From assembly GCA_002690755.1 (NCBI GenBank), contig NZFT01000088.1:6317-11980 (forward strand): a stretch of DNA of 5,664 nt, read 5' to 3'. Shown one piece after another: positions 545-5,417 of the stretch. Within the stretch, counting starts at the first letter, position 1. The number at the start of each line of letters is the position of its first letter. Origin of the DNA: Phycisphaerae bacterium. Its GTDB lineage: Bacteria > Planctomycetota > Phycisphaerae > Phycisphaerales > SM1A02. The notes under the pieces are model-generated. The model was not told where the DNA came from, did not search any database, and worked only from the letters and a program-made list of their open reading frames with translations. The position numbers were made by a program, and so were the translations under genes.

Positions 545-1813
545 TCAGCCGACCCGTCCGAACCGGGCCGCATCGAGCAGCGGCGATTCGATCGAAGGGG
601 CGCCGTCGCAGAGGATCTCCGCGACCAGTCGCCCGGTGATCGGCCCCAGGGTCATCCCCATCATCGCGTGTCCGGTCGCGACCACCAGCCCGCGGGCCCA
701 GGGGATCTCGCCGATCATCGGCATGCCGTCCGGGGTGCACGGTCGGTAACCCGCCCACTCCGCGGTCACCTCGCCCGCCTCGAGGTCTTCGAGGTACGGA
801 CGGGCCGCGCGGGTGAGGTTCTCGAGTCGGGAGCGGGTCCACGGTCGGCCGAGGTCGGTGATCTCGAGCGTCCCGGCCAGCCGAAGCCGGTCGAACATCG
901 GCGTGAAGGCGATGAAGGTCTCCCGAAACACGCCGCCGACCGAAGGAACGTTCGAGAGGCCGGTGAGCTCGCGGTGATAGCCACGGGCGGCCTGCATCGG
1001 AACGTCGACGCCCGCGGTCGCGGCCAGCGGGCCCGACCAGGTCCCCGCGGCGAGCACCACGCGATCGGCGTGCAGGACTTCGCCCGTGGCGAGGACGACG
1101 CCGACGACCCGGTCGTGCTCGACCAGCAGTCGTTCGACCCCCGCGTCCGTGCCCTCGCGAATCGTCACGCCGTCGGCGACGAGGGATCGACGCAGGCCGG
1201 CCATGAAAGCCATCGGATCCATCGTGGCGCTCTGGTTCCAGCGGATCGCGCCGGCCACCGCCTCGCCGAACGCGGCATCGGTCGACCGAAGGGCGTCGCC
1301 ATCGAGTCGCTCCGCGGTGTAGCCGTGGGGCGCGAGGTGGTCGATTTCGTGTTCCGCGGCGTCGAGGTTCTTCGCTTCGAGGCAGACGTCGAGCCATCCG
1401 GTCGGTCGCCAGTCGCAGTCGATGGCGGCGTCTTCGAGGATCTCGTCGAACGCCCGGGCGGTCTCCCAGCCGAGGTGGGCGAGCACGGCGAGGCAGGCTT
1501 CGAAGTGGGGCTTTCGGCAGTGTCGATGAAAGGTGAGGAGCCACCGGGCGAGATCGCCGTCGAGCCGAGGCCGGATGTAGAGCGGACTTTTGCGGTCGAA
1601 CATCCACTTGAGTCCCTGCACGCTGACCCCGGGCCGGGTGAGCGGGGGATGGCCGTAGACGATCAGCCCGGCGTTCCCGCAGCTCGCGCCGTCGCGGATC
1701 GGTTCCTGATCGAGGATCGTGCAGGGCACGCCGCGACGGTGCAGCGCCCGGGCGGCCGAGAGCCCGATGATGCCGCCACCGATGATGAGGACCGGTCGTT
1801 CGCGCGCCTTCAT
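545..1813 (-). CDS. DadA-like FAD-dependent oxidoreductase (D-amino-acid dehydrogenase / DAO family)
   Basis: This 422-residue protein is close to the usual DadA length of about 430. Family members oxidise an amine substrate, usually a D-amino acid, D-proline or D-hydroxyproline, to the imino acid and pass electrons from FAD to a quinone or other acceptor. The N-terminal Rossmann dinucleotide site reads VLIIGGGIIGLSAARALHRRG (residues 8-28) with the ribose-binding acid Asp35 at the end of strand 2. CGNAGL (45-50) matches the DadA-type NAG segment. RGYH (277-280) is the equivalent of the conserved RGY motif. GYRPCTPDGMPMIG (355-368) and GHAMMGMTLGPITGRL (381-396) are the C-terminal FAD/substrate motifs. 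No signal peptide is seen, so it is probably cytoplasmic or membrane-peripheral. The ATG at 1813 sits six residues before the first Rossmann strand, which fixes the start well, although no good Shine-Dalgarno is present. It is the last of three minus-strand genes, and a 16-bp direct repeat lies just upstream. The substrate cannot be read from sequence; related sarcosine/glycine oxidase-type activity is possible. Confidence 0.85.
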   Translation of the reverse strand: MKARERPVLIIGGGIIGLSAARALHRRGVPCTILDQEPIRDGASCGNAGLIVYGHPPLTRPGVSVQGLKWMFDRKSPLYIRPRLDGDLARWLLTFHRHCRKPHFEACLAVLAHLGWETARAFDEILEDAAIDCDWRPTGWLDVCLEAKNLDAAEHEIDHLAPHGYTAERLDGDALRSTDAAFGEAVAGAIRWNQSATMDPMAFMAGLRRSLVADGVTIREGTDAGVERLLVEHDRVVGVVLATGEVLHADRVVLAAGTWSGPLAATAGVDVPMQAARGYHRELTGLSNVPSVGGVFRETFIAFTPMFDRLRLAGTLEITDLGRPWTRSRLENLTRAARPYLEDLEAGEVTAEWAGYRPCTPDGMPMIGEIPWARGLVVATGHAMMGMTLGPITGRLVAEILCDGAPSIESPLLDAARFGRVG

Positions 1814-1899: not shown

Positions 1900-3072
1900 T
1901 CAGCCGGCCTTGCGGCCGCTCGACGCCTCGTCGCGGTACTTCTGGAGCTGCGTCTTGATGCCTTCGGCCATCGGACCACCGTCCGACTTCTCGACCGCCT
2001 TCCGCTGGAACTTGATCGCCATGTCGAGGTCGCCCTGTTCGTAGTATGCCCGGGCGAGGGTATCGAGGATCGCGGGGTCGCCGCCGCCGGCCGCGACGTT
2101 CGCCGCCTTGGCGGCCGCCATCGCGAACTCGAAGTCCCGATCACCGACCGCGGGATCGTCGAGGGTGTACCAGGCGATGGCGTTCAGCATCATCGCGTCG
2201 TCGCGGTTCCGCTTCAGCATCTTCCAGCCCAGGTCGTAGCCTTCGGCGTCGTTCATCGGGCCGATCATGGTCTGGAACTTCATCATCTGAAGTCCGGTGT
2301 CCTCGGGCATCTCCTCGATCGCGGCGTCGAGCGTCTTCATCATGCCGCGATAGTCGCCGGATCGCTGCGCGTTGCGAGACTCCTGCCGGACCGCGGCAAT
2401 GATGCGGGCGGCCTTCTGGGAATTCTCGTACTCGGTCGCGAACGCCTTCCGGTCCCAGGTGCCCGCGACGATCTGCTCGAGGGGTTCGTCCATGGTCATG
2501 GGGTGTCCGATCCACGCGACCTTGCCCTCGCCATCGACCACGAAGGCGCAGGGGATTCCAGTCCGCTTCGCCGCCGTCATGTAGGCCTTGTTGGTGACAT
2601 CGTCCTGGTCGAGCGCGATGGTGTAGCGGGTCTTCTCGTCCCACTGCTTCTGGGCGAGGAACGCCTCGACGACCTCGGGCTTCTCGCGGGTCACGCCGAC
2701 GATGTTCACGCCCTTCGACGCGTACTTCTCCTGGAGTTCGGAGAGATGGGGCATGCCGGCCTTGCAGGGACCGCACCACGTCGCCCAGAACTCCATCACC
2801 GTCACCTTGCCCGGCGTCGGGCCTCGGAAGTCGGTGTCGCCCTTGAAGATCCGCGCCAGCTTCGGCTTCGGGGCCGGGTCGCCGATGGTGAGCGTCCGGG
2901 GCGCGTCGGCGGCCCGCATGTCGGGATTCGGCTGCGGAATCGCGATGGCCGCGTCGGCGGCCGGTGGTCGGCTCGGCTTCTGTTCACCGATGAGGGCGGG
3001 CGCATGCTGGGCGATGGCGACCGCGGCGAGGGCGAGGCAGGCGATCGCGACGATGAGGGTGACCAGTTTCAT
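1900..3072 (-). CDS. Exported TlpA-like thioredoxin-domain protein with helical-repeat C-terminus
   Basis: This is a 390-residue protein predicted to be exported and to carry out thiol-disulfide exchange outside the cytoplasm. Residues 1-21 form a signal peptide (MKLV, hydrophobic core, AIA before Gln22). A Pro/Ala-rich linker runs to about 60. The thioredoxin domain spans about 62-205 with FWATWCGPCKAGMPHL, both active-site cysteines present (Cys100 and Cys103), and the cis-proline loop TGIPCAFVVDGEGKVAWIG with Pro174. Residues about 215-385 are helical and TPR-like, the clearest part being ILDTLARAYYEQGDLDMAIKFQRKAVE split around 335-361. Cys175 directly follows the cis-proline, an extra cysteine near the active site. 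The ATG at 3072 is chosen because it begins the signal peptide; the frame stays open for another 121 codons upstream but that stretch looks non-coding. A GGAG lies 12 bases before the ATG, rather far. The gene is a paralogue of the next minus-strand gene upstream (3230-4447). The in vivo partner is unknown; cytochrome c maturation is a known role of TlpA relatives, but nothing here supports it. Confidence 0.9.
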   Translation of the reverse strand: MKLVTLIVAIACLALAAVAIAQHAPALIGEQKPSRPPAADAAIAIPQPNPDMRAADAPRTLTIGDPAPKPKLARIFKGDTDFRGPTPGKVTVMEFWATWCGPCKAGMPHLSELQEKYASKGVNIVGVTREKPEVVEAFLAQKQWDEKTRYTIALDQDDVTNKAYMTAAKRTGIPCAFVVDGEGKVAWIGHPMTMDEPLEQIVAGTWDRKAFATEYENSQKAARIIAAVRQESRNAQRSGDYRGMMKTLDAAIEEMPEDTGLQMMKFQTMIGPMNDAEGYDLGWKMLKRNRDDAMMLNAIAWYTLDDPAVGDRDFEFAMAAAKAANVAAGGGDPAILDTLARAYYEQGDLDMAIKFQRKAVEKSDGGPMAEGIKTQLQKYRDEASSGRKAG

Positions 3073-3229
3073 GATGAACCGAGGCTCCGGCGAAGGGTCG
3101 CGGTCGGGGAGTCCGAAGCGACCTCGACATCGTACCGTCGACCGGACGGATTCCGGCGTCACGGTTGGAAATCGGGGCATCCACCCCGGTGACGCGGTGG
3201 GTCCCGACGATTCGGCGGGCTCGGACGGG
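3073..3229. other. 157-base spacer between the two thioredoxin-fold genes, with a weak hairpin
   Basis: There is no credible gene here. CCACCCCG (3181-3188) and CGCGGTGG (3193-3200) can pair over eight positions with one C-C mismatch around a four-base loop. On the transcribed minus strand no T-run follows, so it is not a standard intrinsic terminator. A minus-strand TACGAT (about 3129-3134) resembles a -10 box, but I could not place a matching -35 hexamer. The spacer is long enough to hold a separate promoter for the downstream thioredoxin gene. Confidence 0.35.
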
Positions 3230-4447
3230 TCAGGGGCGTCGATCGGAGCGATACGGCGGTGGGAGTTGGCCCGGCTGCACGTAACCGCTGGTGTAGGCCG
3301 CGAGATTCGCCCGGGTCGCGTCGCCGTGCCAGGTGTCGAGGGCGCGGGCGACGGCACGTCGCTGCCAGCGGATCGCTTCCGCCGCGTCGCCCCGCATCCA
3401 CCACACCCGGGCGAGGGTGTCGAGGGTGGAATCATCCATGTAGCCCTGGATGTCGTTCGCCCGGCGGGACATCTCCATGGCGAAATCGAGGTCGCGTTCG
3501 CCGACGTCGGGAAGGTTGACGGTGTGCCAGGCGAGGTCGTTCAGGATCAGGTAGTTGTCGGGGAAGCGGGCGGCGATCTCCCGGCCGTAGGCGTAGCCGG
3601 TCTCCGGATCCGCGGCGGTCGTGATCAGGACGTCGAACTTCGCGATCTGACGCGAGCCGTTCCGGGGATCGAGGGCGATGAGCTCGTCGGCGACCGCGAT
3701 CGCATCCGCCGGCGTCGCGGTGCCGCGGCGGACGCGGCCGTTGACTTCCGCCAGCGCGACCGAGGCGTTCTGCCGGGCGAAGTACTCGAGGACGTTGTCT
3801 CGATACGCTTCCGGCGACCACTTGCCGCTCGCGACGTTCGCCAACGCCATGGTCGACGTGTCCATCGGGCCGTGGAAGATGACCCTTCCCTCGGGATCGA
3901 GTGCGACCACCGCGGGGAGACGGGTCTGGCCGGTCGCATCGAGGATCTCCCGCTTCCAGGCGCCGGTCTCGTCGAGGATGGTTCGAGGCTTCAGCGGTTC
4001 ACGACCCGGGAGGGCGTCGAGCACCGCCTCGACCCGGGTCCGGGGACCGCTTGCGATCGAGATCGCCTCGACCGAATCGAGTTGCGCGTCGACACTGGCG
4101 GTCTGGGCGAGATGCTCGGCGGTCCGGCCGCCGACGAACGGGGACCAGAACACCAGGATCGTGGGACCGTCATCGTTCCAGGCGGTGACCGGCTCGCCCT
4201 CGATCATGGTTCCCGGCGGCGGGGGTGGGGCGACGGAGCCGATCATGCGGAGTTCAGGGAGCGTGGAAGGGTCCGGGGCGTACTTCGAGCGGGCCATGGG
4301 GCGATCGGCCGGAGGTGCTGCGCCGCCCCCGCCGGGCTGGCCGGGGATCGGCGTCTGCCCCGCGACCGGGGTGGACAGCAGCACGGTCGCGAGCAGGCCG
4401 CTGGCGAAGACGGGGCGAGACGTGATCCGGCGGGTTTCTGTGGCCAT
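3230..4447 (-). CDS. Exported cysteine-free thioredoxin-fold protein with helical-repeat C-terminus, paralogue of the neighbouring TlpA-like gene
   Basis: This 405-residue protein is related along its whole length to the next gene (1900-3072). A signal-peptide-like N-terminus (hydrophobic about 12-29, PVAG before Gln31) is followed by a Gly/Pro-rich linker (35-85). The thioredoxin-like fold covers about 93-210. At the active-site position the sequence is FWSPFVGGRTAEHL (100-113), so the two redox cysteines are replaced by Val105 and Arg108. The protein has no cysteine anywhere. The cis-proline loop TRLPAVVALDPEGRVIFHG (Pro178) is kept, so the fold is probably intact. In the C-terminal helical part, residues 302-331 match 296-325 of the neighbour at 15 of 30 positions, and 341-367 match 335-361 at 14 of 27. 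The ATG at 4447 is chosen because it starts the signal peptide; the longer frame would run into the divergent folD gene. TRRIT near the start only loosely resembles a Tat motif. No redox function is expected; a binding or scaffold role is inferred. Confidence 0.85.
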   Translation of the reverse strand: MATETRRITSRPVFASGLLATVLLSTPVAGQTPIPGQPGGGGAAPPADRPMARSKYAPDPSTLPELRMIGSVAPPPPPGTMIEGEPVTAWNDDGPTILVFWSPFVGGRTAEHLAQTASVDAQLDSVEAISIASGPRTRVEAVLDALPGREPLKPRTILDETGAWKREILDATGQTRLPAVVALDPEGRVIFHGPMDTSTMALANVASGKWSPEAYRDNVLEYFARQNASVALAEVNGRVRRGTATPADAIAVADELIALDPRNGSRQIAKFDVLITTAADPETGYAYGREIAARFPDNYLILNDLAWHTVNLPDVGERDLDFAMEMSRRANDIQGYMDDSTLDTLARVWWMRGDAAEAIRWQRRAVARALDTWHGDATRANLAAYTSGYVQPGQLPPPYRSDRRP

Positions 4448-4541: not shown

Positions 4542-5417
4542 ATGTCCACCGCCTCCGAATCCTCGCCGACCGACCACGCCACGACCATCGACGGGAAGCA
4601 CCTCGCCTTCCAGGTGCGGCGAACCGTGGCCCGTCGCGTGGCGGAAGGCAAGCGGCCGGTCCGGCTCGACGCGGTGCTCGCCGGTGGCGACAAGGGGGCG
4701 GACATCTACGCCCACAACCAGCGAAAGACCTGCGCCGCGGTCGGCATCGAATACCACCTGCACCGACTTCCGGCGGACGCCGACGTGCGGGCGGTGGAAG
4801 GCTTGATCGAGACGCTCAACGCCGACCCGGTGGTCACCGCGATCATGGTCCACCTTCCGCTTCCGGACGGCGTCGAGGCGGAGCGGATCCAGTCCTTGAT
4901 CGACGAGGTCAAGGACGTCGAGGGCGTGAATCCCGCGAACATCGGAAACATCGTCTACGGCCGACGGAGCCTGGTGCCGTGCACCGCGCTCGCTTCGGTG
5001 GAGATGATCGAATCCACCGGGGTGGAACTTCGCGGCAAGCGATGCGTGATCGTCGGTGCCAGCAACATCGTCGGCAAGCCGATCGCGGTGCTGCTGATGC
5101 GGGCCGAAGCGACCGTGATCTCGACCAACGAGTACACCGAGGATCTCGCGGGTCTGACCCGCACCGCGGACGTGCTGGTGAGTGCCGCGGGCGTCCCCGG
5201 GCTCATCACCCGGGACATGGTCAAGCCGGGCGCGGTCGTCGTGGACGTCGGCATCAACCGGATCGTCGGCGAGGACGGCAAGCGGCGGACCGTCGGCGAC
5301 GTCGACCACGACGGCGTGGTGTCGGTCGCGGGTCACTTGAGCCCGGTGCCCGGAGGGGTCGGTCCGATGACCGTGGCGATGCTGCTTCGAAACACCGTGG
5401 ATGCCGCCGACCGCTGA
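4542..5417 (+). CDS. folD: FolD-family methylene-tetrahydrofolate dehydrogenase, probably NAD-dependent and lacking cyclohydrolase activity
   Basis: This 291-residue protein has the usual FolD length and both domains. The family oxidises 5,10-methylene-THF to 5,10-methenyl-THF and usually also hydrolyses that to 10-formyl-THF, in the cytoplasm. Family hallmarks present are LNADPVVTAIMVHLPLP (92-108), KDVEG (124-128), PCT (146-148), GASNIVGKP (172-180), DVGIN (235-239) and PVPGGVGPMT (268-277). The catalytic Tyr is kept (Tyr56). However, the Lys four residues later is Gln60, the Gln of the usual VQLPLP is His104, and the second Asp of KDVDG is Glu127. In the dinucleotide site, the usual GRS is GAS (Ala173) and the usual HS is NE (Glu197). 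This pattern resembles the monofunctional NAD-dependent yeast Mtd1, as I remember it. The ATG at 4542 gives 14 residues before the first recognisable conserved block; an in-frame GTG at 4518 would add eight. Neither start has a good Shine-Dalgarno. It diverges from the gene at 3230-4447. Confidence 0.93.
   Translation: MSTASESSPTDHATTIDGKHLAFQVRRTVARRVAEGKRPVRLDAVLAGGDKGADIYAHNQRKTCAAVGIEYHLHRLPADADVRAVEGLIETLNADPVVTAIMVHLPLPDGVEAERIQSLIDEVKDVEGVNPANIGNIVYGRRSLVPCTALASVEMIESTGVELRGKRCVIVGASNIVGKPIAVLLMRAEATVISTNEYTEDLAGLTRTADVLVSAAGVPGLITRDMVKPGAVVVDVGINRIVGEDGKRRTVGDVDHDGVVSVAGHLSPVPGGVGPMTVAMLLRNTVDAADR

Follow-up and report, generated by a model that had tools for sequence, protein, structure and literature searches.

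A lysine-less FolD from a planctomycete, predicted to act as a dehydrogenase only, and its putative FchA-like partner

The pairing of a monofunctional FolD with FchA is already known from clostridia. Clostridium perfringens, in work by Aluri et al. from 2016, reportedly divides the two steps between a FolD that is a dehydrogenase only and a separate FchA cyclohydrolase. The NAD-dependent methylene-THF dehydrogenase of yeast, Mtd1 (structure 1edz), is also monofunctional and has the FolD fold. In Methylorubrum extorquens, structure 1lu9 represents a methylene-H4MPT dehydrogenase, which is taken here to be MtdA; the FchA of structure 7vg4 presumably comes from the same organism.

In bifunctional FolD, a lysine is described as the general acid/base of the cyclohydrolase step, with a glutamine that positions this lysine and an aspartate that binds the pterin (PMC3338484). 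The lysine and glutamine have also been credited with a role in the dehydrogenase step (PMC3368264). Another study (PMC9173628) sees no noticeable part for Lys56 in dehydrogenase catalysis and does not settle what it does for the cyclohydrolase. In the FolD of E. coli, cyclohydrolase is undetectable in the K54N mutant, which keeps about 19% of the dehydrogenase activity, while Q98H retains about 1% of the cyclohydrolase and about 8% of the dehydrogenase; carolacton binding is lost in the first and seriously attenuated in the second (PMC5688156). The K54N strain survives, growing very slowly, and methenyl-THF is reported to hydrolyse spontaneously (PMC5688156); a cyclohydrolase may thus not be strictly needed.

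The stretch of DNA analysed here, 5,664 nucleotides from a Phycisphaerae bacterium and called the window below, codes for an intact FolD-family protein, with an ATG start and no internal stops (Table 1). Alignments made with phmmer against the FolDs of E. coli (1b0a) and Pseudomonas aeruginosa (4a5o) are gapless across the key sites. Together with the codons, they confirm what a first-pass annotation had proposed, that Gln60, His104, and Glu127 stand in place of Lys, Gln, and Asp. The spacing of 44 residues that it gave between the first two sites is indeed that of E. coli positions 54 and 98; the next spacing, 23 residues, likewise equals that from 98 to 121. Its phrase "all three key residues replaced" holds at every site, but the change of Asp to Glu is conservative. 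The protein is altered at both positions where the E. coli mutants were made; at the third, the side chain is still a carboxylate. The KDVEG motif of yeast Mtd1 (1edz) is, on the authority of that annotation, taken to be the same as the one found here.

Table 1. Features of the window and of related loci. Positions are those of the window unless a locus is named.
Feature	Position	Strand	Remarks
folD-like CDS	4542..5417	+	291 aa; predicted monofunctional methylene-THF dehydrogenase
Tyr56 codon TAC	4707..4709	+	kept Tyr of YxxxK; E. coli Tyr50, human Tyr52
Gln60 codon CAG	4719..4721	+	replaces cyclohydrolase Lys; E. coli Lys54, human Lys56
His104 codon CAC	4851..4853	+	replaces Gln; E. coli Gln98, human Gln100
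Glu127 codon GAG	4920..4922	+	replaces Asp; E. coli Asp121, human Asp125
Glu197 codon	5130..5132	+	at E. coli Arg191 position, from alignments
DAO-family FAD-dependent protein	545-1813	-	D-amino-acid-dehydrogenase-like; under NCBIfam cut-offs
Thioredoxin-fold protein	1900-3075	-	weak TPR matches close to C-terminus
Protein with weak TPR match	3230-4447	-	no thioredoxin domain recognised; adjoins the preceding gene
FTCD_C gene of source genome	L073:4532-5188	+	predicted start overlaps pheT stop
FolD-FTCD_C fusion, Paenibacillus mangrovi (G106)	L214:1972-3489	-	one 506-aa frame
SAR324 Lys-less FolD neighbourhood	L109:271-6660		DAO-GCV_T protein, Rieske oxygenase, creatinase/prolidase-type gene

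Both Pfam domains of the FolD superfamily (THF_DHG_CYH) are recognised well over their gathering scores, PF00763 at 90.7 bits against 32.8 and PF02882 at 199.6 bits against 27. The protein lacks, of course, the catalytic lysine of YxxxK and the Gln and Asp partners of a bifunctional FolD. It also falls short of the NCBIfam subfamily and equivalog models for bifunctional FolD; the best score is 272.6 bits against a cut-off of 396, and no cut-off is reached among the 25 models listed of 31 matched. Several public records label its close homologues "bifunctional," names that are contradicted by the residues and by the genomes.

The reading preferred here, with a probability of roughly 0.86, is that the window FolD is a methylene-THF dehydrogenase only, and that an FchA-like protein would do the cyclohydrolase step. 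With the lysine and its two partner residues gone, the FolD would oxidise methylene-THF to methenyl-THF and go no further. The methenyl-THF would then pass to a separately encoded FTCD_C protein and be hydrolysed there to 10-formyl-THF. The loss of cyclohydrolase is argued from published data on E. coli FolD mutated at the corresponding residues. Retention of the dehydrogenase is argued from three things: the genome has yielded no other FolD, purifying selection on this one is strong, and its predicted fold is intact.

How firmly the altered site is held can be judged from the source genome (G000) and 60 relatives, in which PF00763, PF01268, PF04961, and PF02971 were sought. Here, 58 FolD genes were read in 55 genomes; the 59th match to PF00763, in G031, spans only 27 residues, is under the cut-off, and was left out. 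A Lys-less FolD is carried by 43 of the 61 genomes, with Gln at the lysine site in every one. The full set is Tyr-Gln-His-Glu in 41 of these and Tyr-Gln-Phe-Glu in one, and in the last a contig edge ends the gene after His. Relatives with as little as 57% identity retain Tyr-Gln-His-Glu, and dN/dS of the window gene against five same-genus copies is 0.13-0.14. The Q/H/E site is therefore neither chance nor sequencing error. Its near-fixation and the low dN/dS point to an enzyme that has been tuned, rather than to one that is decaying.

A site that is nearly fixed and not decayed is probably functional, and this could be taken to mean that the FolD is still bifunctional through Gln60, His104, and Glu127, with the FTCD_C protein doing something else. 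The same near-fixation, however, is equally expected if these residues serve the dehydrogenase. Further, in E. coli FolD a single substitution at either of two of these sites removes all or nearly all of the cyclohydrolase (PMC5688156). Nor does a substitute lysine appear. The first-pass annotation had named Lys62 as a residue that might take over from the catalytic lysine, an idea that is not borne out. Position 62 varies among the 43 Lys-less genomes (Lys in 15, Arg in 15, and Ala, Ser, Thr, or Val in the remaining 13), and by alignment E. coli FolD has a lysine there as well as its catalytic one; Lys62 is thereby ruled out as a replacement. No new invariant lysine is present among 16 aligned sequences of the clade.

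The gene content of the source genome bears directly on the preferred division of labour. It holds one PF00763 match, the window FolD (on contig C85); no Fhs (PF01268) and no formiminotransferase domain (PF02971) were found by the Pfam search of this genome; and PF04961 (FTCD_C) gives one match, standalone, on contig C11. This gene content is what the dehydrogenase-only inference of the first-pass annotation would lead one to expect, and a likely partner is now found. The missing fhs suggests that the pair would run oxidatively, from serine- and glycine-derived methylene-THF to 10-formyl-THF. The product has users here, PurH and ArnA being over their NCBIfam cut-offs and Fmt- and PurN-like formyltransferases being present with scores under theirs, so 10-formyl-THF is required. 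Thus, the FolD and the FTCD_C protein would form the sole enzymatic route to 10-formyl-THF found in this assembly, which is 88.8% complete with 5.9% contamination. Four same-genus genomes, 94-97% complete, have the same gene set.

The partner passes the PF04961 gathering score easily (118 bits against 24.5) and keeps all eight invariant columns of the family in an alignment of 82 members, itself included. It does not reach the cut-off of the NCBIfam MthfCyhylaseFchA equivalog (72.9 bits against 275, E 2.4e-20), which is why it is called FchA-like here, and which is a point in favour of a FolD that is still bifunctional. The nearest solved structure is the methenyl-THF cyclohydrolase 7vg4 (E 6e-11), with the formimidoyltransferase-cyclodeaminase 1tt9 almost as near (E 2e-10). 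With the equivalog cut-off missed and 7vg4 only marginally nearer than 1tt9, its reaction is given here as a prediction. A role as the cyclodeaminase of histidine degradation was considered and rejected for the source genome, as no PF02971 was found there; the gene probably lies outside that pathway. The genome thus shows the clostridial type of arrangement, a Lys-less FolD and a standalone FTCD_C with no formiminotransferase found, and shows neither of the acetogen features, fhs or linkage of fchA to folD. The two genes lie unlinked on separate contigs.

The window also holds genes of other kinds (Table 1). The protein at 3230-4447 is possibly a diverged duplicate of the thioredoxin-fold protein that it adjoins.

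Across the 61 genomes, standalone FTCD_C accompanies the Lys-less FolD in 43 of 43 cases, and is found in none of the 12 genomes that have a Lys-type FolD only. Eleven of those 12 have no FTCD_C at all; G015, from the window's family, has one only as a formiminotransferase fusion. This contrast counts against a FolD that is still bifunctional, a reading judged very improbable. Fhs is over its cut-off in five of the 61, three of which have a Lys-less FolD. Three genomes (G027, G038, and G051) have both FolD types, and there the Lys-type copy adjoins a fused FTCD. Six others have standalone FTCD_C and no FolD match (G025, 98% complete; G035, 96% complete; G010; G001; G017; and G021), a pattern that may reflect another dehydrogenase or gaps in assembly.

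If methenyl-THF hydrolyses unaided, of course, no second enzyme need be sought, and the FTCD_C protein might be a remnant or a formimino-THF cyclodeaminase. The spontaneous reaction and the slow survival of the E. coli K54N strain, both noted in PMC5688156, lend this some weight. Yet every one of the 43 Lys-less genomes retains the FTCD_C gene, the copy in the source genome has the invariant residues of its family, and no formiminotransferase is found in 40 of the 43; in the remaining three, a fused FTCD accompanies the standalone gene. Such an account is very improbable.

It might also be supposed that the protein is no methylene-THF dehydrogenase at all, having lost both activities or turned to another C1 carrier. 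The E. coli mutants at Lys54 and Gln98 do lose much of their dehydrogenase as well, and Glu197 of the window FolD stands where E. coli has Arg191. Among six other same-genus FolDs read at that position, five have Lys and one (G004) has Glu, as here; Glu at this site may change the preference between NAD and NADP. However, no other FolD was found beside the Lys-less protein in the source genome, nor in 40 of the 43 genomes that carry this type, and the purifying selection and intact predicted fold would be hard to square with such a loss. This is the least probable of the explanations considered.

Does the pairing of a Lys-less FolD with FTCD_C extend beyond the planctomycetes? A survey of the lysine site in 80 named loci, with genomes examined for 50, found Lys-less FolDs in eight. 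Five further genomes with only a Lys-less FolD all have FTCD_C, in frames of 204-298 aa. Four are titled Planctomycetota, Phycisphaerales, or Phycisphaeraceae and one "uncultured bacterium," and none repeats an earlier genome; G061, which gave the same places as G007, was dropped. In the genomes from SAR324 and Hyphomicrobiales, a Tyr-Gln-Gln-Glu FolD is accompanied by a second, Lys-type FolD, and FTCD_C was sought there and not found. The neighbourhood of the SAR324 copy (Table 1) is suggestive of betaine demethylation.

Among 42 Lys-type genomes, three have FTCD_C. In G080, it lies in a 637-aa frame that appears by eye to be formiminotransferase plus FTCD_C, and there is a second, weaker match. 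In G106, a natural FolD-FTCD_C fusion has Tyr-Lys-Glu-Asp in its FolD part, the Gln being replaced by Glu, and a separate canonical folD is present. G073 is a real exception, with a Lys-type FolD and a standalone FTCD_C that adjoins MTHFR and Mur-ligase-like genes.

In a sample of 196 clostridial genomes, FTCD_C is over the cut-off in 68 and not in 128. The lysine site could be read in 65 of the 68 (it is masked by N in G138, and G191 and G205 have no FolD match). Among the negatives, FolD was read in 41 of 128, namely all but one of the 30 highest-scoring and 12 picked for a low score or as borderline; the borderline pick is G239, whose FTCD_C match is under the threshold and which counts as negative, and the Paenibacillus fusion is left out of this count. 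A Lys-less FolD is present in 62 of the 65 readable positives, against one of the 41 negatives (G143, a 1.2 Mb genome), the other 40 being Lys-type. The 62 include G114, which also has a Lys-type copy. These clostridial proteins have A, I, L, V, or Q at the lysine site and F, L, M, or Q at the glutamine site, and keep the Asp, bar two exceptions.

Three FTCD_C-positive Clostridia have only a Lys-type FolD. In G177, FTCD_C is the last in a series of genes for a lyase, urocanase, formiminotransferase, and amidohydrolase; in G277, it adjoins such a set on the opposite strand. Both are explained by this position beside histidine-degradation genes. In G165, the contig ends at FTCD_C, which cuts off the gene context. 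Thus, the pairing largely holds in Clostridia.

Counts of genomes are not, of course, counts of evolutionary events. A FolD tree was built from 168 of 251 rows after thinning, with four trait columns left out. On it, FolDs with Gln60 and Glu127 from Planctomycetota, SAR324, and Hyphomicrobiales group together (31 rows, SH-aLRT 99), and the clostridial Lys-less FolDs lie elsewhere. The tree needs three changes of lysine state, or two in a 72-row version from which five long or odd rows were left out. Repeated convergent loss is unsupported, as a single Lys-less clade has a likelihood better by 7.1 and is not rejected (AU p 0.643). FTCD_C is present in the source genomes of 80 of 83 Lys-less representatives, against eight of 67 Lys-type ones with known status; the Lys-less exceptions, three in all, are G143 and the copies from SAR324 and Hyphomicrobiales, each of which shares its genome with another FolD. 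Independent contrasts number one on starred branches and three on all, too few for significance in a sign test. The association is therefore strong by genome count, and weak as a phylogenetic test with few independent events.

These observations may be joined in one larger picture, which is put forward tentatively and which we hold to be somewhat doubtful. In it, the FolD lysine and fchA would be interchangeable across bacterial phyla, takeover by FchA would free the Lys-Gln-Asp site, and the Q/H/E enzyme of planctomycetes would be a dehydrogenase in its finished form, tuned separately, that serves a purely oxidative, Fhs-free route to 10-formyl-THF. It might even hand methenyl-THF to FchA within a complex, as the natural Paenibacillus fusion hints. 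For annotators, the YxxxK lysine alone would allow a prediction from sequence of whether a FolD needs an FchA partner. For pharmacology, the E. coli mutants lead by analogy to the prediction that Lys-less Q/H/E FolDs would be insensitive to carolacton. Further, the pair in the source genome suggests that FchA is tied neither to Fhs nor to acetogenesis.

Comparison with described systems places this one. The E. coli enzyme (1b0a, 5o28) has Lys54, Gln98, and Asp121 and both activities in the wild type; its Q98H mutant is structure 5o2a. The M. extorquens system works alike, with the dehydrogenase of 1lu9, lacking cyclohydrolase, plus FchA. C. perfringens resembles the predicted window system in its reportedly dehydrogenase-only FolD with a separate FchA. 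It differs in having Fhs as well, to go by the title of Aluri et al. (2016), whereas no fhs was found in the window genome. The window clade is Q/H/E and mostly has no fhs; the clostridial Lys-less FolDs sampled here differ at these sites. Acetobacterium woodii, with its fhs1-fchA-folD genes, likewise encodes FchA apart from FolD, one gene for each step, but clusters them with fhs in the Wood-Ljungdahl pathway (PMC10472528), whereas the genes of the source genome lie on different contigs, with no fhs found. In open-licence literature, at the level of listings and the openings of abstracts, no description was found of a Lys-less FolD in Planctomycetota or of the Lys/FchA pairing. As far as these searches show, what is apparently new is the Q/H/E form nearly fixed in a planctomycete clade, its mostly Fhs-free setting, and the rule that links a residue to a gene.
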